Positions 34,645 to 49,675 of a DNA stretch of 57,408 nt are shown one piece after another (position 1 is the first letter of the stretch; every line of letters starts with the position of its first letter). A model generated the notes under the pieces. The model had not been told where the DNA came from. It ran no database searches and saw only the letters and a program-made list of their open reading frames with translations. The position numbers were made by a program, and so were the translations under genes. Source of the DNA: Flavobacteriaceae bacterium. Lineage in GTDB: Bacteria > Bacteroidota > Bacteroidia > Flavobacteriales > Flavobacteriaceae. The stretch lies in the NCBI GenBank assembly GCA_002400885.1, contig NVRM01000003.1, positions 1 to 57,408 on the forward strand, in the 5' to 3' direction.

Positions 34645-35310
34645 TTATTTTTTATTTCCTTTGTGTTTTATCAATTCTGCTTTTTTATAAAAGATTATTT
34701 CTTCCGCAATATTTTTAATCAAATCCCCTACGCGTTCATACTTTTTAATGATAGAAGAAAGTTGCAAGGCTTTGCCTATAATCCCGGTATCTTTTTTAAT
34801 CTCAGCTTCTATAACAGAAAATGCCTCGCTATTAATCGCATCTAAAATCTTGTCTTTTTTAAACACTTTTCGTGCAGATTTTACATTTTCGTTTTCAAAA
34901 GCATCCATAATATCTTCGAACATATCCCGAATTGTCGCATGCATTTTTTCGAATTGTAAGACCTTAATTAAATGTTCTGGTGTTTTCGTTTCATCTTCGA
35001 CTACATATTTAGAAATCCCATAAGCATGATCTCCAATCCGTTCCAAATCAATATTGATTTTCAGTATCGCTATTACAAATCTCAAATCCGTGGCTACAGG
35101 CGTATACAAAGCCATATAGCGCTCACAATTCTTTTCAATGTAAATATCCAAGGCATTTACGTGGGCCTCGGTATAAATCACTTCCTCTGCCAGGTCCACA
35201 TCATTATTTAAATAGGCCTCTGTAGCTTTCTCTAACTGAGAAATACAAAGAGACATCATTTCTAAACCCGCTTGGTTTAGCAATTCTTTTTGGTGGTTTG
35301 CGTTTTCCAT
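34645..35310 (-). CDS. phoU: Phosphate signalling complex protein PhoU
   Basis: Two PhoU helical repeats (TPVATDLRFVIAILKINIDLERIGDHAYGISK, SSIIKKYERVGDLIKNIAEEIIFYKKAE). Confidence 0.94.
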   Translation of the reverse strand: MENANHQKELLNQAGLEMMSLCISQLEKATEAYLNNDVDLAEEVIYTEAHVNALDIYIEKNCERYMALYTPVATDLRFVIAILKINIDLERIGDHAYGISKYVVEDETKTPEHLIKVLQFEKMHATIRDMFEDIMDAFENENVKSARKVFKKDKILDAINSEAFSVIEAEIKKDTGIIGKALQLSSIIKKYERVGDLIKNIAEEIIFYKKAELIKHKGNKK

Positions 35311-35319
35311 ATCTATTGT

Positions 35320-36150
35320 TTATCCGAATCTTCCAGTGATGTAATTTTCGGTGCGTTTTTTTTCAGGTTTTGTAAATAATGTTTTTGTTTTACTGTATTC
35401 CACCAATTCTCCAATGTAGAAAAACGCAGTATAATCGCTAATTCTACTGGCTTGCTGCATGTTATGCGTCACAATAATAATGGTGTATTTTTCTTTTAAT
35501 CCAAAAATCAGATTTTCAATTTTAGCGGTAGAAATAGGATCCAGCGCCGATGTTGGCTCATCCATTAAAATGATAGATGGTTCCACAGCCAAGGTTCTAG
35601 CAATACACAAACGCTGTTGCTGTCCTCCAGACAATGCCAAGGCCGATTTTTTTAAGTCATCCTTTACTTCCTCCCATAAATCCGCTTGTCTTAATGCTTT
35701 CTCTACACGACTATCCAATACTTTTTTATCTGAAATCCCCTGTATTTTAAGACCATAAGCTACGTTTTCGTAAATAGACTTAGGGAACGGGTTCGGTTTT
35801 TGAAACACCATACCTACTTCTTTTCTAAGTTCTTCTACATGTATTTTCTTATTGTAAATATTGGTTCCATCGATCTTTATCTTACCCTCCATGCGGAATC
35901 CGTCTATATAATCGTTCATGCGATTAAATAATCGTAAAAAGGTTGATTTTCCACAACCAGAAGGTCCTATAAACGCCGTTACTGAATTAGGCTTGATATC
36001 CATGCTAATTCCTTTTACAGCCTCGAAATCACCATACCAAACTCTGGCGTTTTTTATAGAAATTTTAGTTTTACTTTCCTGCTCACTCTCCTTGTTCATT
36101 GTGAAATTTTTTGTGTTTTTTTCTGCTACTAATTCCATTTCTTTTGCCAT
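35320..36150 (-). CDS. pstB: Phosphate ABC transporter ATP-binding protein PstB
   Basis: [70 protein letters not shown]. True start could be an internal Met. Confidence 0.95.
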
Positions 36151-36983
36151 TTATTTCTATAATAAACGGCGACCGCATTCATCATAAAAGTTACTAATAA
36201 TAATATAATAATTGCCGCTGCGGCATTTTCTATAAACCCGTGTTGAGGCCTTGAAATCCAGTTAAATATTTGGATCGGTAAGACCGAGAACTCTTCCATT
36301 GGATTGCTTGGAGCAAAAGGCACATAGGCCAATGCCCCCACCACGATTAAGGGAGCCGTTTCACCAACCGCTCTGGATAAAGATAGGATTACCCCGGTTA
36401 AAATACCTCCACTTGAGGCGGGTAAAATCTGATTCCATATCGTTTGCCATTTCGACGCTCCTAAAGCATAAGATGCATCTCGGATAGTACTAGGAACTGC
36501 TTTTATAGATTCCCTGGTCGCTACAATAATTATAGGTAATATCAATAAGGATAAGGTGAGACTTCCAGCCAATACACTTGCCCCTAAATTGAGGATACGC
36601 ACAAAAACTTCGAGTCCTAATAAACCATATATAATGGACGGTACTCCCGCCAAATTTGAGATATTAATTTCCAATAAAGCAGAAAACCTTCCTTTCTTTG
36701 CATATTCCTCTAAATAAATTGCTGCAGCCACACCGATGGGAAAAGCAATGATGGTTGTCAAAGCTAAAATCCAAAGACTCCCCATTAGGGCTGTGTAAAT
36801 TCCAGATTTTTCTGCTTTCCTAGAAGGTAAATTCATGACAAATCCCCAATCTATTCGCATGATACCATCAATTAAAATATCACCAATAAATAGCACCAAT
36901 AAAATCAATCCCACGAGCGTACATCCGATACCCCATATTTTAAATAATTGATCTTTCCATCTGTTTACTTGTATCTTATTCAT
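36129..36983 (-). CDS. pstA: Phosphate ABC transporter permease PstA
   Basis: [59 protein letters not shown]. Confidence 0.94.
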
Positions 36984-37854
36984 ATTTAGACTGGTATTTT
37001 TTTCGAATTCTATAACTGATTGTATTCAAAACAAATGTGAATGCAAATAAGGTAATTCCGGCAGCGAAAATGGTTCTATATTCAATGGAACCATGCTGTA
37101 CGTCACCCAAACTAACCTGAACAATATAAGCTGTAATGGTTTCGATAGGCACCATTGGATTTAATGTGAGTCTCGGTTGCTGCCCTGCTGCAACGGCTAC
37201 AATCATCGTTTCTCCAATAGCTCTAGAAATGGCCAATATAATGGACACTATAATCCCAGAAGAGGCTGCTGGAACCACTACTTTAAATGCTGTTTGCAAC
37301 TTGGTAGCTCCCATACCATAGGAAGCTTCTCTTAATTCTCTTGGCACCGCATGCAAGGCATCTTCACTGATAGACGAGATAAATGGAATAATCATAATCC
37401 CCATCACCAAACCTGCAGACAAGGAGTTAAATCCTGATAAATTAGGAAATATGCCTTGTAAATATGGAGTGACAATAATCAATGCAAAAAAACCATATAC
37501 TACCGTAGGAATCGCTGCCAGTAACTCTAACATAGGCTTGACCGTTTTCCTAAAACTTTTAGGAGCGTATTCACTTAAATAAATACTGATGGATAAGCCA
37601 ATAGGCAGGGCTACAGAAATAGCAATAGCTGATGTTAAAAATGTCCCAGAAAGCAGGGGTAAAATACCGTAGTGTTTATCGGTAAATAAAGGTGTCCATT
37701 GGGAATCTGTGAAAAAATCAAAGATAGAGACTTCTTTAAAAAAACGCACGGCTTCAAAAGCTAACACAGATACAATTCCTATGGTTACGGCAACCGTAAT
37801 TAAGGCACTAGTAAGCAGTGTTTTTTCGATGAAACCTTCTTTAAATTTACGCAT
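36976..37854 (-). CDS. pstC: Phosphate ABC transporter permease PstC
   Basis: SISEDALHAVPRELREASYGMGATKLQTAFKVVVPAASSGIIVSIILAISRAIGETMIVAVAAG. Confidence 0.94.
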   Translation of the reverse strand: MRKFKEGFIEKTLLTSALITVAVTIGIVSVLAFEAVRFFKEVSIFDFFTDSQWTPLFTDKHYGILPLLSGTFLTSAIAISVALPIGLSISIYLSEYAPKSFRKTVKPMLELLAAIPTVVYGFFALIIVTPYLQGIFPNLSGFNSLSAGLVMGIMIIPFISSISEDALHAVPRELREASYGMGATKLQTAFKVVVPAASSGIIVSIILAISRAIGETMIVAVAAGQQPRLTLNPMVPIETITAYIVQVSLGDVQHGSIEYRTIFAAGITLFAFTFVLNTISYRIRKKYQSKYE

Positions 37855-37919
37855 TTGTAAATGGTTAAATTTAGAAAACCAACGGCCTATACCGTTGATT
37901 TTCGAATGGTTATTAAATG

Positions 37920-38876
37920 CTATTTATTTTTTAGTACAAAAGCCTTGAATCGTTCTATTTGAGTATCGTACATTTCTTGAGGTAATGGAATATACCCTAC
38001 ATCTTTAGATAATTCACCTGCATTTTTCAAATAAAACTCTACAAAGGTCACCACTTCTTTAGCAGCAACTGATGTACTATTTACATATAAAAATAAGGGT
38101 CTTGACAAGGGGCTATAGCTTCCATTACTTACCGTTTCTAAGGTTGGTTTTACAACTTCGGTACCGTTATGTACTCCTATTAAAGATAACTTTTCTTTGT
38201 TTTCACTGTAATATGCCAGTCCGAAAAAACCCAAGGCATATTTATCTCCTACTATCCCTTGTACCAATACATGATCATCCTCACTTGCCGTAAAATCTCC
38301 ACGGCTAGATCCGCTTTTTCCAACAATTGCTTTTGTAAAATAATCATAGGTTCCAGAAGCGACACCAGGACCGAACAAATGAATTTCCTCATTAGGCCAT
38401 TCTGGTCTGATCTGATTCCATTTCATAATAACTCCCTGAGCTGCTGGCTCCCAAATCTTTTTCAATTCTTCTACTGTAAAACTATCTACCCAATCATTTT
38501 TAGGATTCACCAATACCGCTAAACCATCATACGCAACTTCTAATTCTATATAGCTGATATTATTGGTTGCACAGGCAGCCATTTCTTTATCCTTAATCGG
38601 ACGTGAAGCGTTGGATAGATTTGTTTCTCCTCTAGAGAATTTCTTAAATCCACCTCCCGTTCCAGAAATACCAATCGTCACTTTTACTTTTGGAGCTACT
38701 TCCCTAAACTCTTCGGCAACAGCTTCTGTTATTGGGTACACGGTACTAGAACCATCTATTCTAATCGTTCCAGACAAGGCTGTCTCACCTTGTACTAGCG
38801 TTTTTTTATTTGTTGTTGTTTCTCCACAAGCAATTATTATAGCGGAAAAAATCGTTAAAAAAAGTATTTTTTTCAT
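37920..38876 (-). CDS. pstS: Phosphate-binding protein PstS family (lipoprotein)
   Basis: Lipobox [66 protein letters not shown]. Confidence 0.93.
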
Positions 38877-38901
38877 CTGTCTTATTTCTAATATTATTTT
38901 A

Positions 38902-38998
38902 CAAATAAAGGCAACAGATATAACTTGATTGTTAGCTAAAGATGAAGAAATAGCTCTTTTTAGGTTAGTTGAATGTTATGAACTTAACGAGAACTTAA
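38902..38998 (-). promoter_or_regulatory. Candidate Pho-box promoter of pstSCAB-phoU
   Basis: CAAATAAA (38902-38909; coding strand TTTATTTG), 19-nt gap, heptamer TTGTTAG 38929, then AGGTTAG 38962 and ATGTTAT 38973 in the same 11-nt register; further AACTTAA-cgag-AACTTAA at 38981-38998. Confidence 0.6.
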
Positions 38999-39079
38999 AG
39001 TAAGGTATTTCTCTAAAGCCTAAACTTCGAGGAGTTGCTTGCTAAAGCGTCTTTTGTGTCTTCTCAAAAAAAAAAGCAC

Positions 39080-39118
39080 AAAAAAAGAGGAAGATGCGAA
39101 CACCTTCCTCTTTTTTTT
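39080..39118 (-). terminator. Terminator downstream of the porin gene
   Basis: AAAAAAAGAGGAAGATG-CGAA-CACCTTCCTCTTTTTTTT. Confidence 0.75.
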
Positions 39119-39132
39119 ATCTTTATTCGTCC

Positions 39133-40332
39133 TTAAAAATCTATCTGAAAACGCAATTGAAAAGCACTAAATTGTCCTTTCCCTGTATAGTCTGTCGTAT
39201 TTTCAATAGTAGAAATCACATAATTTACCATCACACGGGTAGCAGGATTCAGGTGCCAGTTTAGGCCCGTCGTAACATTGCTCATTTTATCCATGTTCAT
39301 CCCATCGATATATGAATACCTCAAAGCAATCTGAAGTGCTCCATAGCCATTCTCTCCAAAGTTATTTAGTGGTTTTACACGTCCAAATCCAACTAATGAA
39401 TTTTTATAAACTCTTTTTTCGCCTGTTAAAAAATAACTTGCCTGAAAGTAATAACTAGAAAAATCTTGATTTTCAATAGCATTGACCTTTGCTTTTAAAA
39501 ACTCTCCTTGTAAAGAAAAAGAGTTGGCTACCCAGGCCATCTCAACATTCATCAGATTCACATGATCCACCCCGGAAACAGCCGTCACGATGTATTTATT
39601 AGAGATATGAGTTTCAGGTCGAACTGTATACCCATAATGGGTATCTTCTTGTGGTTTTCTATAACTATACCCAGCTCCTACATGTAACAAGTTATCGTCA
39701 TTCTTGATCACTAAACCAGCAACTCTCCCTGTTACCGCATAATCTCCATTTGCAACTTTTTTATCAGAAGAAGCATCAGCTCCTCTAAAGACTCCAAGCT
39801 GCCAAGACATTTTCTTCTCCGAAAACTGATCAAACAACATGGCTCCAGAACTACGTTCGCCCAACATACTAATAACTGTAGCACGTTCCATAAATGTAAA
39901 ATACTTACTACTAGTTAAGGCTTCTAATCTAAACGGCTCTTTAAAATGCCCGACTCTTAAATGACCTACAGGCAATTCTCTTAGGGTAATAAATGCATCT
40001 TTCAGTGTCACTTTACCTCCTGCAAAATCTACATTTAATTTAAAATCTACATTTTTATAAAGAGTACCAGACATAAAAAAACGTGCTCTTCGTAACTCTG
40101 TTCCGTTCGAAGATTTCAAAGAATACCCGTTCTTTTCTGCTTCATCATTCAATCCAAAAAAGCCCATATCATACATGATACGCCCACCAAAACTCAACTT
40201 TATACTTTTATCAGCATTGGTAACTTTAAATCCATTGTCCCACTTAATAGAAAACGGATTCTCCTTTTCTTGAGCGCTTACGCCTGTACATACACTCCAT
40301 AAAAATACGAATATTGCGACTCTATTTCTCAT
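39133..40332 (-). CDS. OprO/OprP-like phosphate-selective porin
   Basis: LSFGGRIMYDMGFFG, LRRARFFMSGTLYKNVDFKLNVDFAGGKVTLKDAFI, VGHFKEPFRLEALTSSKYFTFMERA. Confidence 0.88.
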   Translation of the reverse strand: MRNRVAIFVFLWSVCTGVSAQEKENPFSIKWDNGFKVTNADKSIKLSFGGRIMYDMGFFGLNDEAEKNGYSLKSSNGTELRRARFFMSGTLYKNVDFKLNVDFAGGKVTLKDAFITLRELPVGHLRVGHFKEPFRLEALTSSKYFTFMERATVISMLGERSSGAMLFDQFSEKKMSWQLGVFRGADASSDKKVANGDYAVTGRVAGLVIKNDDNLLHVGAGYSYRKPQEDTHYGYTVRPETHISNKYIVTAVSGVDHVNLMNVEMAWVANSFSLQGEFLKAKVNAIENQDFSSYYFQASYFLTGEKRVYKNSLVGFGRVKPLNNFGENGYGALQIALRYSYIDGMNMDKMSNVTTGLNWHLNPATRVMVNYVISTIENTTDYTGKGQFSAFQLRFQIDF

Positions 40333-40357
40333 AATATATTCTTAGTTTTTGTCGTTG

Positions 40358-40402
40358 CAAATAAACAACAGCTTTGTTAAGTTAAAGTTATGACTATGTT
40401 AT
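40358..40402 (-). promoter_or_regulatory. Candidate Pho-box promoter of the porin
   Basis: CAAATAAA 40358-40365; heptamers TTGTTAA 40374, AAGTTAT 40385 and ATGTTAT 40396, each 11 nt apart; 19-nt gap from CAAATAAA to 40385. Confidence 0.65.
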
Positions 40403-40426
40403 TTAAAAACAAAACTTCACACAAAA

Positions 40427-40450
40427 AAGGCCGCAATAAATTGCAGCCTT
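40427..40450 (-). terminator. Terminator downstream of the beta-helix lipoprotein gene
   Basis: AAGGCCGCAA-TAAA-TTGCAGCCTT, A-tract on the plus strand (T-tract in the minus transcript). Confidence 0.7.
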
Positions 40451-40508
40451 CCCATATATAAATCGTCGACAAAAACTAATTTATAAATCTAACATCATTA
40501 ACCTAAAG

Positions 40509-41711
40509 TTATTCTACAGTCCAACCTGCACCCCAAGTTGCGTAATCTGTCCCTGTTCCGTTTCCGTCTCCCGAGATAAAATCAGCTTCTGTAAAGGTAA
40601 ATCCAGTATCGTTTTTCATCTTTAAAGTAACATCTGTAAAAGTAATATCCTCTACTTTTAACACACCATCTACCACTCCTTTTCCAGTAGGGCTCGTAGT
40701 ATCGTCTCCATCTAGATCAAATCCTTCTTTAAATCCTATAATTTTAAAGTTTGAAAACACTCCTTGTGTACCTGCTCTTAAGCGTACTGCTTCTCCTCCA
40801 TCAGAAGATCCTAGACCAACAATAGTAACATTGCTTACCGTTGGAGCAGAGAAATAGTTTGTGTTTGAATTATTCCCTATATCGGTATTAAACCCATCCG
40901 CTTCTATTCCTTTATCATGATTTTCTCCATGTTTCACATAAGCATTGGTGATGTTTCCAGAATAGCCTTCTGTCCAGTCAATAGAATCATCTTGCGCATT
41001 TACAACCGATAAAAAACTAACATTAACAGTCCCTCCAAAGAATTCGATACCATCATCCAATCCCTCAAACATTTGAATATAAGAAACACGTGTTGCATTC
41101 CCTACTCCATAAAAAGAGAAGCCATTGTTCTCTGACTGACCATCTGCTTTTCCTCCCGAATATTCTACACGAACATATTTTAACGTTCCAGAATTATCCG
41201 CAACCACAGACCCTCCATAAGGTAAGGCTCCAATTTCTGAAGTAGACGTTAAATCACCACCAGTCACTGAGTTTATCGGTGCTTTTCCAAGAAGTATTAA
41301 CCCTCCCCAGTCTCCAGCTTTAGGAGCTGCAGCGTCAGAAGTAAAAACAATAGGTTTAGATACAGTACCTACCGCATTAATGGTCGCTCCTTGCGCTATT
41401 GCCACATAGATATCTGACCCTGCAGCCAATGCTTTTATAACAGTACCGGCTTCGATATTCAAGGTCGTCCCTTGAGTCATCACTAAGGCTCCATTTAAAA
41501 TATAAGTATTTGAAGCCTCTAAACTCAAATCTTCTACATAAGTCCCAGACAGGTAAATGGTTTCTGAAGTGCTTTGATTCTCAGCTCCATTATTATTCGT
41601 TACATTGTTCGTAGTGGTCGCGTTGATGATAATATCTGAAGTGTCATCATCTGCACAGGACACTGTAAAAATCGCTAAAAATGCTACTGCTATTTTAATT
41701 GTATTTTTCAT
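40509..41711 (-). CDS. Predicted surface lipoprotein, beta-helix-like
   Basis: Lipobox LAIFTVSC|ADDD; Gly/Asn-rich beta-repeat sequence (VYIA-like strands, DDGIEFFGGTVNVSFLSVVNAQDDSIDW); operonic with the TonB receptor. Confidence 0.75.
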   Translation of the reverse strand: MKNTIKIAVAFLAIFTVSCADDDTSDIIINATTTNNVTNNNGAENQSTSETIYLSGTYVEDLSLEASNTYILNGALVMTQGTTLNIEAGTVIKALAAGSDIYVAIAQGATINAVGTVSKPIVFTSDAAAPKAGDWGGLILLGKAPINSVTGGDLTSTSEIGALPYGGSVVADNSGTLKYVRVEYSGGKADGQSENNGFSFYGVGNATRVSYIQMFEGLDDGIEFFGGTVNVSFLSVVNAQDDSIDWTEGYSGNITNAYVKHGENHDKGIEADGFNTDIGNNSNTNYFSAPTVSNVTIVGLGSSDGGEAVRLRAGTQGVFSNFKIIGFKEGFDLDGDDTTSPTGKGVVDGVLKVEDITFTDVTLKMKNDTGFTFTEADFISGDGNGTGTDYATWGAGWTVE

Positions 41712-41750
41712 TGTTAATTATTTTTTGTTTTGTTGTTTTATTTTTAATTA

Positions 41751-44567
41751 TTAAAATTTGTACTTCAATTGGAATCCTATATTCATTCCATATTTATATG
41801 ATTTAATTACGACGCTTTTATTGCCGGCTAATGTTCTCTCCACTTTAATTGCTGGATTCAATAGATTTTTTGCACTTAAATTTAATTCGAAATGTTTTCC
41901 TATGCTGTTTTTCCAAACAATATCTAATGTGGTAAATCCCTTTTCTATTTTATTCCCTAATTTCCCTGAACCCAATGCATAAATACGATCTGAGAAGTAA
42001 CTTGCCATTACATTGATGTCTGCATCTATCCCTTCTCCAAAAGAGGGATGAAAACTGATATCGGCATTCACCAATAAGGGCGAAGCACCTTGTAAGTCCT
42101 CTTTTTCTCTATCAAAACTAGTACTAAAGGTTCCACTTATAGTATTAAATAAATCCTGTTCCGTATCCATATACGCAACGTTAAACCCCGTTCCTAAAAT
42201 TGTTTTTCCTTGCGCATTCACTACAATGTTTTTCTTTAGCTCTAACTCCACACCTTTAATTATAGCCTTGTTCCCTGTTCTAAAAAACCGCTGCGTTCCT
42301 GTAGCATCATTTGCGACTACTAAGTTTACTGGATTCTTAATTTGCTTTGCAAACACCGCAACAGAAAGCATCTCGTCCGATGACATAAACCATTCATACT
42401 TTAAGTCTAGATTTAGAATATCCGAATAGGATAGGTTCTTTATATTGGTGTATTTCATTCCTTTTTGACGTCCTAATAAATCTGGATTCCCTCCAGTTCT
42501 ACTCGTTACCCCTTCATATACATACGGTGCCATTTCTTTAAATTCGGGAAAGGATACGGTATTACTCACCGCTAATCGAAGGTTTTGATCCTCCTGTAAA
42601 CCATATTTAATATTTAAACTTGGTAAATACAAATTCTCATCAATACTTGCTTGCCCAGGATTGTTTAATAAATTGATAACATCCCAAGAAATTTCTTGCT
42701 CAAATTTCTCCATTCTAATTCCCGGAACAAACAACCATTTACCCGCCTTTAATTCTGCCGATGCATATGGGGCCATTACGGTTAATTTTCCATTGTAAGT
42801 GTTTTCTAAAAGTCCAGGAAGATTTGTAGGTCCAAATCCACCTTCTGGATATATGGCGTTAAAAACATCTGTTTCAACTAGGCCATCCGTAATATTTTGG
42901 AGATTAAAAATCGCATTAAAGTTAGTTGGATCCACTACAATGCTTGTTGCAATATTTTTATAACCATAGCGCACATTTTCAAAATGACGTTTTTTGTATT
43001 TACCATCATAACCTACAAACAGCTTGAAATTATCTGAAGCCGCATAAGAAAATTGAAGCCTAGAAGTCAATTCAGCATCTTTAATGGTTTCGAAATAACG
43101 CTGGTTATCAAAGGAGTTATTTTGAAAAATTGTAGGGTTGGTCGTAGGATCATCATCCAAGGCATCTTGGTAATTTTCTAATGAAAACCGCTTGCGGTCT
43201 GGTTCCCTAGACACCACCCTATTATAGCCTAATCCCCAATCTACTTTTAACTTTTCATCTTTAGAACTGTGTGTTCCTAACAATTGATTGGTATAGATCA
43301 TGTCCTGGTTAAACTGTACGTTCATTTGATAAAAACCAGTATCTGTATTCAGTTTTGCATCTCTATTGGCTCCCATACCTTGGGTTCCATAATACCCTAC
43401 TTCGTCTTTCGAAGCATTTACAAACAATGAATTAAATGATAGTTTATTACGGTCATCTATACGATAGGATACATTCATGAGACTTGTCGTTGTATTTTTA
43501 GTTTCATACTTGTCTACATGGGGAAATTTCTTTTTTTCTACCGTTGTATAATCTACTTCCGATCCCGTGATAAAATTATATTGCTTCTCAAAAGCAATCG
43601 TAGCAAACAAACTTAAACGACTTTCTTCAGAAAAAGAGAAGCTCTTTCCTCCAACAATACTCGCGGTTATATTCACAGGAGACCATCCTTTTACAGGATC
43701 AACCTCATGAGACAATACCACCGCATACGGATTGTGATTATAACGGTTGTAAAAACCAAAACCTCCTGTTCCTTCAGACTGTTTAAAATCAGCACCGTTT
43801 ATCGCTGTATTACGACCTCCACCAAGTGAAATTTCCAACATTCCATCTCCGTTGTACTCCTTTGTTTTTATATTGATATTCCCAGCAGCAAAATCACCAT
43901 ATAACTGAGCAGAATACGCTTTACTTACACTTACATTCTCAATAATATCTGTAGAAAATAAATTTAAATCTATATTCTTTTTATTAATATTATTGGAAGG
44001 AAGCGACAAACCATTTAACGTTGTGTTCAGGTAACGATCTCCTAAACCACGTACATACACATTGCTAGATCCTTCCTTAGAGATTCCAGAAATTTTAGAC
44101 ACTGCAGCAGCGGCATCACCTATTCCTTTTTGAGAAAGTTCTTCGGCACCAATACTTTGCTCAATAGACACTGCTTTCTTTTGTGCAGCTAATAAGGCAG
44201 AAACAGACTCCTTTTTTACAGTTCCTTGGATTAAAATTTCGTTCAATGTAACCCCACTACTCGAGTTTAATGTTTTATTTAAAACAACCGTTTCTCCACT
44301 GGTAATTAATACTCCTTCCTGACTTATTGTTTCATATCCTAAAAAACTAAACACAACAGTATAGCTTCCCGGAGCAATTTTAAATCTATAGGTCCCATCC
44401 ATTTCAGTAGTAGTCCCTATGGTCGTTCCTTTTATATAGACATTCGCAAATGGCAAAGACTCGTTATTAAACTCCTTGTCGTAGATTGTCCCTCTTAGTG
44501 TTCCTTTCTCTTGTGCAAAAGAAACCGTAAAAGTAAACATCAATAAAACTGTAATAATTTTCTTCAT
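41751..44567 (-). CDS. TonB-dependent receptor with CarbopepD-reg-like N-terminal domain (phosphate island)
   Basis: Signal peptide, TTTEMDGTYRFKIAPGSYTVVFSFLGYE domain, plug VYVRGLGDRYLNTTLNGLSLPS, C-terminal YKYGMNIGFQLKYKF. Confidence 0.9.
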   Translation of the reverse strand: MKKIITVLLMFTFTVSFAQEKGTLRGTIYDKEFNNESLPFANVYIKGTTIGTTTEMDGTYRFKIAPGSYTVVFSFLGYETISQEGVLITSGETVVLNKTLNSSSGVTLNEILIQGTVKKESVSALLAAQKKAVSIEQSIGAEELSQKGIGDAAAAVSKISGISKEGSSNVYVRGLGDRYLNTTLNGLSLPSNNINKKNIDLNLFSTDIIENVSVSKAYSAQLYGDFAAGNINIKTKEYNGDGMLEISLGGGRNTAINGADFKQSEGTGGFGFYNRYNHNPYAVVLSHEVDPVKGWSPVNITASIVGGKSFSFSEESRLSLFATIAFEKQYNFITGSEVDYTTVEKKKFPHVDKYETKNTTTSLMNVSYRIDDRNKLSFNSLFVNASKDEVGYYGTQGMGANRDAKLNTDTGFYQMNVQFNQDMIYTNQLLGTHSSKDEKLKVDWGLGYNRVVSREPDRKRFSLENYQDALDDDPTTNPTIFQNNSFDNQRYFETIKDAELTSRLQFSYAASDNFKLFVGYDGKYKKRHFENVRYGYKNIATSIVVDPTNFNAIFNLQNITDGLVETDVFNAIYPEGGFGPTNLPGLLENTYNGKLTVMAPYASAELKAGKWLFVPGIRMEKFEQEISWDVINLLNNPGQASIDENLYLPSLNIKYGLQEDQNLRLAVSNTVSFPEFKEMAPYVYEGVTSRTGGNPDLLGRQKGMKYTNIKNLSYSDILNLDLKYEWFMSSDEMLSVAVFAKQIKNPVNLVVANDATGTQRFFRTGNKAIIKGVELELKKNIVVNAQGKTILGTGFNVAYMDTEQDLFNTISGTFSTSFDREKEDLQGASPLLVNADISFHPSFGEGIDADINVMASYFSDRIYALGSGKLGNKIEKGFTTLDIVWKNSIGKHFELNLSAKNLLNPAIKVERTLAGNKSVVIKSYKYGMNIGFQLKYKF

Positions 44568-45071: not shown

Positions 45072-45755
45072 TTAATCAACAATCCCTAATTCTTTTGCAA
45101 TTGTAAAAAGGTCTATATTATTATTTGCATCCAAATCAATACGCAGGTTACTCAACTTGTTTTCAATAGTTCTTAAGCTCAATTCTACTCCTTTAGCATT
45201 TTGAATGACCCCTACCATATTCTTAATTTTAGAATGCCTCGGAAGTTCTTTTAATATTTGAATAGCGACATCATCCATTTGAATTTCAACAATTCTTCGT
45301 CTCATCAATTTTTCATGAATAGAATGGGTGTAAAAATACTCGTTATTCAACATTTTTTGAACGGCAAAATAGAGTTCATCCTTAGAACAGTTACTCTTTA
45401 AAATATAAGCTAAAGGCTTTAAATTATGAATTACATTAAACACTCTATTAATAGAAGAATGCCCAGTAATCACACCTGTTTTAGGTCTAATTCCATCCCT
45501 ATCCAGTTTTTTCATCAGCGCTTCTCCGTCTTCAATTTCGTCTGTATTGTTAACGTTTTCAAAACTAAGATCTGTAAATAGGATATCAAATGCCTCGTTA
45601 GCAACTGCCGCTTTTTTAATCTCTTTATAAGCAGCATCACAATTAGTCTTTCCAATAATTTCTATTTCGTCATACTTATTTAATGCGTTCACAATACCTT
45701 CTAGTAAAAAGCTATGATCATCTACGGCAATTATTTTAACTATTCCTTTTTTCAT
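45072..45755 (-). CDS. Response regulator (REC + LuxR-like HTH)
   Basis: VDDHSFLLEGI, phospho-acceptor Asp in ILFTDLSF, T in GVITGHSS, K in AYILKSN; C-terminal LSLRTIENKLSNLRIDL HTH-like segment. Confidence 0.85.
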   Translation of the reverse strand: MKKGIVKIIAVDDHSFLLEGIVNALNKYDEIEIIGKTNCDAAYKEIKKAAVANEAFDILFTDLSFENVNNTDEIEDGEALMKKLDRDGIRPKTGVITGHSSINRVFNVIHNLKPLAYILKSNCSKDELYFAVQKMLNNEYFYTHSIHEKLMRRRIVEIQMDDVAIQILKELPRHSKIKNMVGVIQNAKGVELSLRTIENKLSNLRIDLDANNNIDLFTIAKELGIVD

Positions 45756-45776
45756 TTTCTTTTTTCTTTTTCTCTA

Positions 45777-47747
45777 TTAAAACCCCACACTAATTTGTGT
45801 AATCGTTCCAATATTTAATTTACTTTGAATTAAAAATTCGCCTTTTAACTTAAGGATCCTTTCTCTAATGTTTTTCAGTCCAATTCCGTTTCTTTTACTG
45901 TCTGTGTTAAAACCACGACCATTATCCGTTATAACTACTTTTGTCTTGTTTTCATGTACGGAAAACACAATTTTTATCAAGGTTGCGTCGGCATGTTTGA
46001 CCGTATTTTGAATGGTCTCTCTCACTCCTAAAAATAAAGCTTGTTTTTGAGGAACCGTAGTTTTTCTTAAATCTAAATGATCTAATCCTTTTAAATCTAG
46101 CTTAAAATTGTCCTTCTCATAGCTTGTTATTAAATTCTTGATTTGTGTTTTAAATGTAACCGTATCAAAATTTCTAATAGTTATCTCCTGTGAAAAAGAT
46201 TCTATTAGCTCTGACACCATTTCGGTTTCTATGGCTAGCTTGAGCTCTTGGTTTACTTCTAGGTGATGTTTTACTCTTTTTAAGGTAGTCGCTACATCTT
46301 TCCCCAATCGCTCCCCTATATCAAGCCTTTCTTCTTCCTTTACTTTCGCCTTGATTAGTTCTTGTTCGAAGCTCGTTTTAGATTTTTTATAATTAAACTT
46401 CATCAATAAAATAGCCATGAACAATAATAGGGCAACAATGGACAATAATATAATTACCCCTAATTGCTTCCTGTATTCAAACTCCTTTTGTTTCACTAAA
46501 TTGTCTTTAAACAAGGCCTCATTTTCCTGTTGCTTTTTTAAGGTTTCGTATTCAATACCCATCATACTATTTTTAGTATGGTATTTCATGTTATCCAAGC
46601 TATCGTTTAACTTTTTATATGCTTTTGCATATTTCAAGGAATTCTCTTCATCTATTTCCGTGAGGAATAATAAATTATTAAGCGTACGGTCATTAGATGC
46701 TACTTTCCGAGAAATCTTTAAAGCTCTCTTTGCATGAAACAGTGATTTTTTTAATTCCCTTGGTTTTTTTTTATAAAAATAATAGCCCCTATAAAAATCA
46801 ATAAATGTTAATACTCTATAATCATCCGAAAGTATCCCTATTTCATACGCCTCGTTGTAATTTTCCAATATCTGATCACTATTCCCTTCTAAAAAATTTG
46901 AATGTGCCAAATTAGCGAGCATCATGCTATAAAACCTAGGGAATTTTTCTTTTAGATTTTTTATTTTCAAGCCTTTTTCTAAGTAATAAATTACCGAATC
47001 TTTTTGTCCTCCAAAATAACTCGAATAAGAAAGGTTATTCAAAGCATTTGCCATTAACAAGGTATCCTTTTGTTTTACCGCTACTCTGTACACTTTCTTA
47101 TACAAATCTATCGAGGCTTCGATATCTTCCTGTTCAAATTTACAGGAAGCCAATAACATGTATAATGAATTGATAAACAATGGTTGTTTGGCCCCTGGCT
47201 CTAAATACATCAAACCATTTATGATGGTTTCCTCTGCCTTTTCATATTCATGACGCAGTAATTCTGATTTCGCAACATTATAAGATACCACACCATTAAA
47301 AATGGAATCACCTTCTTTTACTCCTAATGCTTTTGCTTTTTTAAAACAAGTATAGGCACTATCTGTCAAAACCTGCTCTCTCAAGGAAATTCCTAGGTAG
47401 CGATAATAATCATAATTATCTTTATATGCACGCTCTCCAAATGACCGTATCTCTTCAAGAACCATACTTAATTCTGTATATTTATCCCTGTAAATATACA
47501 AGTCCGCAATATTTAACCTCGCATCCATTCGCAAAGAATCTATCATCAAATAGTCAGAAATATCTATCGCTTTTAATGCATCTTTTTTATTGACATTAAA
47601 ACCTAAGGAGTCCATTTCAGACCTATCTATAAAATAGTAAACACTATCAAGTAATCTATTTTTACGCGTCATTTCTTGTGAAAATCCTACTTGAATTGTA
47701 ATTAAAAAGATTACAAAGAATACCGATGTTATTTTTCTATAAATCAT
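45777..47747 (-). CDS. TPR sensor histidine-kinase-like protein with intact HATPase but no phospho-acceptor His
   Basis: N-terminal TPRs, TM segment, DHp-like EEERLDIGERLGKDVATTLKRVKHHL (His replaced), HATPase RETIQNTVKHAD...VVITDNGRGF...NGIGLKNIRERI. Confidence 0.85.
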   Translation of the reverse strand: MIYRKITSVFFVIFLITIQVGFSQEMTRKNRLLDSVYYFIDRSEMDSLGFNVNKKDALKAIDISDYLMIDSLRMDARLNIADLYIYRDKYTELSMVLEEIRSFGERAYKDNYDYYRYLGISLREQVLTDSAYTCFKKAKALGVKEGDSIFNGVVSYNVAKSELLRHEYEKAEETIINGLMYLEPGAKQPLFINSLYMLLASCKFEQEDIEASIDLYKKVYRVAVKQKDTLLMANALNNLSYSSYFGGQKDSVIYYLEKGLKIKNLKEKFPRFYSMMLANLAHSNFLEGNSDQILENYNEAYEIGILSDDYRVLTFIDFYRGYYFYKKKPRELKKSLFHAKRALKISRKVASNDRTLNNLLFLTEIDEENSLKYAKAYKKLNDSLDNMKYHTKNSMMGIEYETLKKQQENEALFKDNLVKQKEFEYRKQLGVIILLSIVALLLFMAILLMKFNYKKSKTSFEQELIKAKVKEEERLDIGERLGKDVATTLKRVKHHLEVNQELKLAIETEMVSELIESFSQEITIRNFDTVTFKTQIKNLITSYEKDNFKLDLKGLDHLDLRKTTVPQKQALFLGVRETIQNTVKHADATLIKIVFSVHENKTKVVITDNGRGFNTDSKRNGIGLKNIRERILKLKGEFLIQSKLNIGTITQISVGF

Positions 47748-49675
47748 ATATTCATTGTTGGAATTATAATAGTGTACCTTCCTTTATCTCCTATCATAGA
47801 TTTAACCTCTCCATTTATTTCTTGAATACTTTCTGTTACGCTGATAAAATAGGGAAGCTTCTTAAAATCAAAAAGTGCATTATATTCTTTGACTTCTGTT
47901 TTTATGATGTCATCCAACAAAGAAAAATTTATTTGAACGACATCACCTGTCGTATTTTTCACAATACTAAGTATCCCTAAATACAAAACCCGTTTTACAG
48001 AGGAGGCAATATTCCCCCATATCACATCATTTAAACCGGTGATTTTTATATCCAACGAAGGTTTAAAATTCTCTGTCACTAAATTTATTATCTGATCTTT
48101 AAACCCAACCTCTTCAAAACTTTCCGAACTTAACTCATGGGACATTTCTCTAACAATTTCCCCAATACTATTTACAGCTTTAGCCAATTTATGATCCCCT
48201 GTGTTTTTAATCCTTAAATGCAACATGTTTAAATCTCCTGCTATTTCGTCATGTAGCTTTTTCGCCAATCGTTGTCGCTCTTCTTCTCTAGCCTCTACCC
48301 TTTCTAACTTTTCTATATAAAGTTGTTTTTTCTTTCGCTGTACAATACTATAGCTCAATGTAATAAACATCAGAAAAGCAGCTAACAATCCCAGTCCAGA
48401 AATTATATTATTAAACTGTACCTTTTCTATGACCGATTTTTTTTGCGTATTCTCTTTTTTCAAGGCTAAATTCAACTGCTCTTTTCGATTTACTTCAAAC
48501 TTAATTTTAGAAATTTTTGTCCGAACATCTTTATTTAAAAAATTGATACTATCCGTTAAGCGCAAATATTGAGAGGTATATTTTATCGCCTTATACGTAT
48601 CTAAAGATGCGCCTAAAAACAATGCAGCATACAGGTTTTCCAATTCATTAGATGAAAAATTACCGATGGCTAGATTGATATGTTTTTCAGCTTTAGCATA
48701 CTCAAGCCTTTCTTTATACACTTTTGCCAATCTAAAATGAAGCTCAAACAATAAATTACCAAAACCTTCTTTTTTACACATAGTAATATACTGAGCGCTC
48801 TCTGTAAAAAAGTGTTTGTTTCCGTATTTATAATAAGCGGTATAACTCCTGTTACTGATTAAGGAAACATCCTCCTTGTCTGCTAGTTTTTGAGATTTTT
48901 TTATAGCAATTCCCTTTTCAAAATAATAAAAAGCAGAATCATATGATTTTTGGGAGAGCAGCATTGTTCCTATTTTATTATACGCATAAGCTATACTCGT
49001 TGAATCTTCAAAATTTACGGCCCTGTTCTTTAGAACAAACAAGTCTTGATAGGCCTCTTCCTTATTGCCCATTTTAAACTCGACCTTGGATTTTAATAGA
49101 TATAGGCTGTTTGAAATCTTAAAATCATTCACTGCCAAAGGAATATCTAGGCCCAACAAGATGTTTTTTTTTGCCCCAACATATTCCTGACATTCATACA
49201 GTATACGTGAAATATTATAGTACCCTATTTTACTTTGATGATTATTCTCCTGAAGCAAACTGCTTTTTAATCCCTTATTGTAAAAATAAAAGGCACTATC
49301 TCCCACATGTTTAAAATGATAAAAGGCTCCCTTTTTATACCAGTAATTATTAAGAACAACCTTGGAGGAATGAACCGTAGACCTTTCTAGGTCTAAAAAT
49401 ATTTTTTGAAGACGCACTAAGGAATTATTTTTAGAAAACAAAAAGCCAACAAGATTTAAATTTGCAGTGATAATAGCCTCCTTGTTTTGATTCCTTTCTG
49501 CAATCTTTACTGATTTTTCTGCAAATGACAAGCGAAGACTTTCCGAAAACTGAAGTTTCTCGGATTTTTCAATGTAATAAGTAACGCTATCTAATTCCGA
49601 AGTAAGTAACTGAATTTGAGCATACCCACAACAAAACACACATAGAAAAAAAAGCATTATTGTGCCTTTCAACAT
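47744..49675 (-). CDS. TPR sensor histidine-kinase-like protein with canonical HisKA_3 His but degenerate HATPase
   Basis: N-terminal TPRs, TM segment, EEERQRLAKKLHDEIAGDLNMLHLRI; C-terminus LGILSIVKNTTGDVVQINFSLLDDIIKTEVKEYNALFDF lacks DxGxG and GxGL. Stop overlaps next start (ATGA). Confidence 0.83.
   Translation of the reverse strand: MLKGTIMLFFLCVFCCGYAQIQLLTSELDSVTYYIEKSEKLQFSESLRLSFAEKSVKIAERNQNKEAIITANLNLVGFLFSKNNSLVRLQKIFLDLERSTVHSSKVVLNNYWYKKGAFYHFKHVGDSAFYFYNKGLKSSLLQENNHQSKIGYYNISRILYECQEYVGAKKNILLGLDIPLAVNDFKISNSLYLLKSKVEFKMGNKEEAYQDLFVLKNRAVNFEDSTSIAYAYNKIGTMLLSQKSYDSAFYYFEKGIAIKKSQKLADKEDVSLISNRSYTAYYKYGNKHFFTESAQYITMCKKEGFGNLLFELHFRLAKVYKERLEYAKAEKHINLAIGNFSSNELENLYAALFLGASLDTYKAIKYTSQYLRLTDSINFLNKDVRTKISKIKFEVNRKEQLNLALKKENTQKKSVIEKVQFNNIISGLGLLAAFLMFITLSYSIVQRKKKQLYIEKLERVEAREEERQRLAKKLHDEIAGDLNMLHLRIKNTGDHKLAKAVNSIGEIVREMSHELSSESFEEVGFKDQIINLVTENFKPSLDIKITGLNDVIWGNIASSVKRVLYLGILSIVKNTTGDVVQINFSLLDDIIKTEVKEYNALFDFKKLPYFISVTESIQEINGEVKSMIGDKGRYTIIIPTMNI

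Follow-up and report, generated by a model that had tools for sequence, protein, structure and literature searches.

Reciprocal loss of the phospho-acceptor and ATP-binding sites in a tandem pair of flavobacterial membrane histidine kinases

Two kinase genes and a response regulator

The window analyzed here is a 57,408-nt stretch of a Flavobacteriaceae bacterium genome (contig NVRM01000003.1). Its minus strand carries two TPR histidine kinase genes, which we call A and B, and a response regulator (RR), in the order A, B, RR with 21 bp between B and the RR. The original prediction is matched exactly in the strands and coordinates of the three open reading frames; the ATGA overlap of A and B is found in the sequence, and the TPR-TM-DHp-CA layout that it described as common to both kinases is complete in each. 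The features of the locus are as follows.

47744..49675, minus strand: kinase A, 643 aa; signal sequence, TPR region, TM, DHp with intact His box, eroded CA; putative phospho-acceptor subunit
48230..48289, minus strand: HisKA_3 H box of A, residues 463-482 (REEERQRLAKKLHDEIAGDL), with the His475 codon at 48251-48253
47747..48115, minus strand: ATPase (CA) remnant of A, residues 521-643, G1 and G2 lost; the quickest-evolving stretch of A
47744..47747, minus strand: ATGA shared by the stop codon of A and the start codon of B
45777..47747, minus strand: kinase B, 656 aa; signal sequence, TPR region, TM, DHp without the His, intact CA; putative ATP-binding subunit
46281..46340, minus strand: degenerate H box of B, residues 470-489 (KEEERLDIGERLGKDVATTL), with the codon of Gly482, which replaces the His, at 46302-46304
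45783..46049, minus strand: intact CA core of B, residues 567-655, with ETIQNTVKHAD, DNGRGF and NGIGLKN
45072..45755, minus strand: RR, 227 aa; receiver and C-terminal effector region

Kinase A retains EEERQRLAKKLHDEIAGDL, and the LHDE within it, with the acceptor His475 and its adjacent Asp, is invariant in the three species in which the pair was found, so that the canonical HisKA_3 box predicted for A is indeed there. The HisKA_3 match of A scores 17.1 bits, under the Pfam cut-off of 24 bits, and intact single homologues likewise score 17-19 bits. The ATPase domain is eroded, as had also been claimed. At the CA motifs A reads LSIVKNTTGDV, EYNALF and YFISVT, with small deletions, where B reads ETIQNTVKHAD, DNGRGF and NGIGLKN; G1 (DNGRGF to EYNALF) and G2 (NGIGLKN to YFISVT, with a 3-residue deletion) are lost in all three species, and no Pfam HATPase match is found in A even at E<=1. 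The N-box Glu and Lys-His are gone as well, and a single N-box-like Asn (N574) may be left at a place where the alignment is ambiguous. An early alignment gave Ser/Asp there, and loss of this Asn was dropped when alignment with the closest single homologues gave Asn. The HDxxxQ phosphatase motif is missing in A (HDEIAG/HDEIVG) and in the single homologues of the related genus g156 (HDEVAG), so RR dephosphorylation by way of this Gln is not expected.

In kinase B, LGKD stands where the His is expected: Gly482 replaces the acceptor His, and Lys483 replaces the Asp next to it, which in DesK forms a catalytic dyad with that His (PMC6798134). The three B orthologues read GK, GK and GE at this position, with Gly in every species. 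No Pfam HisKA_3 match is found in B at E<=1, and the three-species alignment of its DHp domain holds no substitute conserved His. The HATPase_c match of B reaches 27.9 bits, over the 26.4 cut-off, and its N/G1/G2 motifs are invariant in the three species, which agrees with the intact ATPase boxes and LGKD box originally read in B; B is also the only one of the two kinases with HATPase_c above the cut-off. In the RR, the receiver residues D12/D13, D62, T97 and K120 are intact, as the predicted Asp/Thr/Lys set implied. Its C-terminal effector region is conserved and resembles LuxR-type RRs, and Pfam GerE gives no match in the protein.

Conservation, constraint and origin of the reciprocal loss

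The pair is common to two congeneric MAGs, NORP270 (L028) and NORP150 (L029), with 58-61% identity for A and 71-72% for B, and is known from these three species only, all of them incomplete, fragmented assemblies. The motif state is the same throughout: A has LHDE without G1/G2, and B in the congeners has LGKE or LGED with perfect N/G1/G2. Three independent contigs, with protein identities of 58-74%, carry the reciprocal loss. A DHp-CA profile was derived from intact kinases, and every distinct kinase ORF of the fetched loci was aligned to it; both halves are kept in 104 of the 111 rows that cover the H position, a sample of relatives and not a random kinase census. The three rows without the His but with the CA domain are all B orthologues, and the four with the His but without the CA domain are all A orthologues, one of which enters twice because of a fragment. 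Within these 111 rows the reciprocal state is confined to the A/B pair, where the acceptor His and the ATP site lie on separate polypeptides, the hallmark of a split kinase. The anticipated co-occurrence of His loss and ATPase loss in adjacent pairs is seen in both congeners, and the refuting case, a pair in which one paralog retains both halves, did not turn up; where the locus has an intact kinase, it is an unduplicated single gene. Second kinases adjacent in G441 and G482 were considered as split pairs and rejected, being intact, distinct TPR kinases (QELHDGVLSKL). In these g156 genomes the QELHDGVLSKL kinase lies 0.7-1.3 kb upstream of the main kinase (L124/L125).

Constraint is highest in each protein at its intact domain. 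By the Nei-Gojobori method, whose values are rough here with several pairs near dS saturation, dN/dS is 0.05-0.16 in the DHp and 0.36-0.48 in the CA core of A, 0.03-0.12 (where finite) in the CA core and 0.09-0.19 in the DHp of B, and 0.02-0.14 and 0.07-0.11 in the neighboring RR and trmH, respectively. Across the three species, 22/25 columns of the A H box (residues 463-487) are invariant, compared with 23/73 in its CA core (p=1e-6 between them), making the H box the best conserved part of A and the ATPase remnant the least constrained. For B the counts are 68/86 in the CA core, 14/24 in the H box and 35/57 in the DHp, and CA core invariance differs between A and B at p=1e-9. That the DHp of B is still constrained without a conserved His is what would be expected if B must dimerize. 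The reciprocal pattern is conserved and is more than chance, given the same losses in two congeners, the intact state of 104/104 other classified kinases and the domain-specific selection.

In family-wide profile searches of 400 genomes from 237 genera, A and B both have their nearest relatives in a single other flavobacterial genus, g156. Most g156 genomes viewed carry a single intact kinase (LHDE, DNGxGF, GIGL) and an orthologous RR beside trmH/mutS, in the order mutS, trmH, kinase, RR. A and B group with these singles in one clade with 100/100 support, apart from other TPR kinases. Because g156 has one intact kinase between trmH and the RR, the pair looks like the product of duplication and complementary degeneration; the plain reading is that one intact TPR-TM-HisKA_3-HATPase gene was duplicated in tandem at its native place, with complementary loss following, while an older duplication with later loss of one copy in g156 might also account for the pattern. 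The tree gave no firm branching order for A, B and the singles, as the stem branches of A and B are long, and A and B as sisters are not rejected (AU p=0.194). The G267 kinase (L043) is intact and sits on a long branch, so its placement is unsure. In G439 the single trmH-locus kinase (L140, 4392-6335) has one in-frame TAA in an otherwise intact frame, and no intact RR was seen directly after it.

A fourth congener, G001, which is an incomplete MAG, has a trmH-to-RR gap of 402 bp. The gap holds a match to the start of A, MLRGIVVPLFLQSFSLLVV and then a stop (23/30 identity; 0/2000 shuffles as good), 191 nt past the trmH stop, compared with 178-189 nt in the window and NORP270, and it keeps the last ~70 bp of B (81% identity, E about 1e-15). 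With an A start and a B tail present, the ancestor had at least B and probably both kinases, and a single deletion took both out of G001. The deletion, about 3.8 kb when compared with the congeners, left a scar that fuses the A start to the B tail (L188, G001:C49, 5830-6231). The orphan RR persists and is conserved, with dN/dS similar to that of other RRs. Because one event takes out neighbors together, the joint loss argues only weakly for joint function.

A proposed heterodimeric kinase and its alternatives

We propose that A and B are two halves of one histidine kinase, a heterodimer formed via the DHp helices, in which the CA domain of B would bind ATP and phosphorylate His475 of A in trans, and the phosphoryl group would then pass from A to Asp62 of the adjacent RR. 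What is observed comprises the sequences, their conservation, the synteny with a single intact gene, the selection pattern and the joint deletion; the heterodimer, the trans reaction, the phosphotransfer to this RR and the gating logic are inferred. A division of labor in which ATP is bound by one subunit and the phospho-acceptor lies on the other, as the original prediction had it, is well supported by comparison, through the reciprocal loss in three species and the intact single kinase of g156, and further by the reciprocal domain constraint and the joint deletion in the fourth species. We regard a duplicated, complementarily decayed heterodimeric kinase acting along this route as the likely reading, with good though incomplete confidence, and A and B probably must pair up to signal. 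Each has a signal sequence, and its TPR region is presumably periplasmic, which makes it probable that input from both sensors would converge on one output. AND logic of the two TPR sensors, also part of the original prediction, is plausible but not automatic, since one silent sensor would still give a working heterodimer; for the fuller claim of an obligate heterodimeric membrane DHp-CA kinase, born of tandem duplication and complementary loss, whose two TPR sensors gate one transfer as an AND gate, we see the chances as even. The proposal would require trans phosphorylation, and this HisKA_3 subgroup may work in cis or in trans; the mode is set by loop geometry, a rule from which NarX/NarQ may depart (PMC8199190). 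AlphaFold2 monomers built from 6-row alignments are of low confidence (mean pLDDT 62 for A and 61 for B, with the CA C-terminus mostly <35) and were left out of the argument.

Alternatively, A could be a pseudokinase-like modulator or phosphatase subunit whose His475 is phosphorylated, if at all, by another intact kinase and not by B. Pseudokinase modulators of bacterial histidine kinases are known, with such roles proposed for DivL, RetS and a ChrS variant with a frameshifted CA domain (PMC9491836, PMC12189002), and the same genome has 37 HATPase matches and, on contig C132, a further intact TPR kinase with an RR of its own. A complete, unlinked partner is conceivable. We nonetheless find a modulator role unlikely. 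No part of A is more conserved than its His box, while in DivL and ChrS the His is dispensable; the phosphatase Gln of HisKA_3 is absent, with HDEIAG in place of HDxxxQ; and the intact CA domain of B, translated from an overlapping start, would be left with no substrate. A DivL/RetS-like modulator works on a complete partner, and neither A nor B is complete. The second intact kinase (L171, G000:C132, 3684-6287) belongs to a different subgroup, with NGLSNM as G2.

It is similarly improbable that A and B are homodimers that meet transiently, B phosphorylating A without a stable heterodimer. CheA4 acting on the P1 domain of CheA3 is a precedent for such contacts (PMC3591291), but mixed dimers are favored because A and B each have the complete TPR-TM-DHp architecture of their common ancestor, which was presumably a dimer. 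Still less credible, in our judgment, is decay in progress, with one or both kinases being non-functional relics, short-lived after duplication. The long stem branches, the absence of the pair from G001 and the stop codon in one g156 kinase would fit such decay, but the frames are open in three diverged species under purifying selection in complementary domains, and exactly complementary loss would be unexpected. An assembly or frameshift artefact can practically be dismissed even though the metagenome-derived window genome and its congeners are incomplete assemblies, as three diverged, independent contigs share an identical arrangement and reciprocal motif state.

Known split kinases and the surroundings of the locus

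Split kinases are already known among CheA types. In CheA3/CheA4 of Rhodobacter sphaeroides, as in A/B, the acceptor His and the ATP site lie on separate proteins, and neither protein autophosphorylates alone; about 3.7% of HisKA proteins in SMART have no recognized HATPase and could be split kinases (PMC3591291). However, CheA3/CheA4 are CheA-type proteins of a soluble cluster with a separate P1 domain and whole domains missing, while A and B keep the full membrane sensor-DHp-CA layout and have losses at the motif level. Hik36/Hik43 (PilL-N/PilL-C) of Synechocystis likewise make one kinase from two genes for an RR (Rre6), but there a CheA-like gene is cut in two, the genes are unlinked and there is no duplication with reciprocal loss (PMC7656254). 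DesK/NarX-type kinases share with the pair the HisKA_3 H box with its His-Asp dyad (in A), the HATPase (in B) and the adjacent RR, but hold both halves in one homodimer and have the HDxxxQ phosphatase Gln that A lacks (PMC5231405, PMC8199190). In the RetS-GacS heterodimer, DivL and ChrS/HrrS a paralogue or pseudokinase also affects a partner kinase (PMC12189002, PMC9491836), yet one partner is complete there. The closest likeness in orthologous RR, synteny, architecture and clade is the g156 trmH-locus kinase with its RR (L040, L041, L126-L139), which differs in that a single gene has kept the His as well as the ATP site. A literature search that took in few subscription journals returned no earlier account of a pair of full-length DHp-CA membrane paralogues that show reciprocal loss; what is new here is that tandem copies of a HisKA_3-type membrane sensor kinase have decayed reciprocally into a split kinase.

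In this marine flavobacterial genus, one ordinary sensor kinase would thus have been replaced by two side-by-side half-functional copies. The pair looks like a natural counterpart of the trans-complementation experiments that are classic for two-component kinases, and a related genus still holds the unduplicated gene at this locus. How duplication, degeneration and complementation make an interdependent heterodimer out of a homodimer could be studied here in a tractable case, and the pair also offers a natural sensor kinase with two inputs in which gated signaling could be examined.

Downstream of the RR, on the minus strand at 34645-44567 of the window, lie genes for a TonB-dependent receptor, a 400-aa secreted protein and a porin O/P-like protein, and then pstS-pstC-pstA-pstB-phoU, which by sequence reading would be a phosphate uptake cluster. 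Phosphate sensing was considered on account of this cluster and was not adopted because the g156 kinase and RR at trmH stand without one. The TonB-dependent receptor, the 400-aa protein and the porin also lie 3' of the pair in both congeners.
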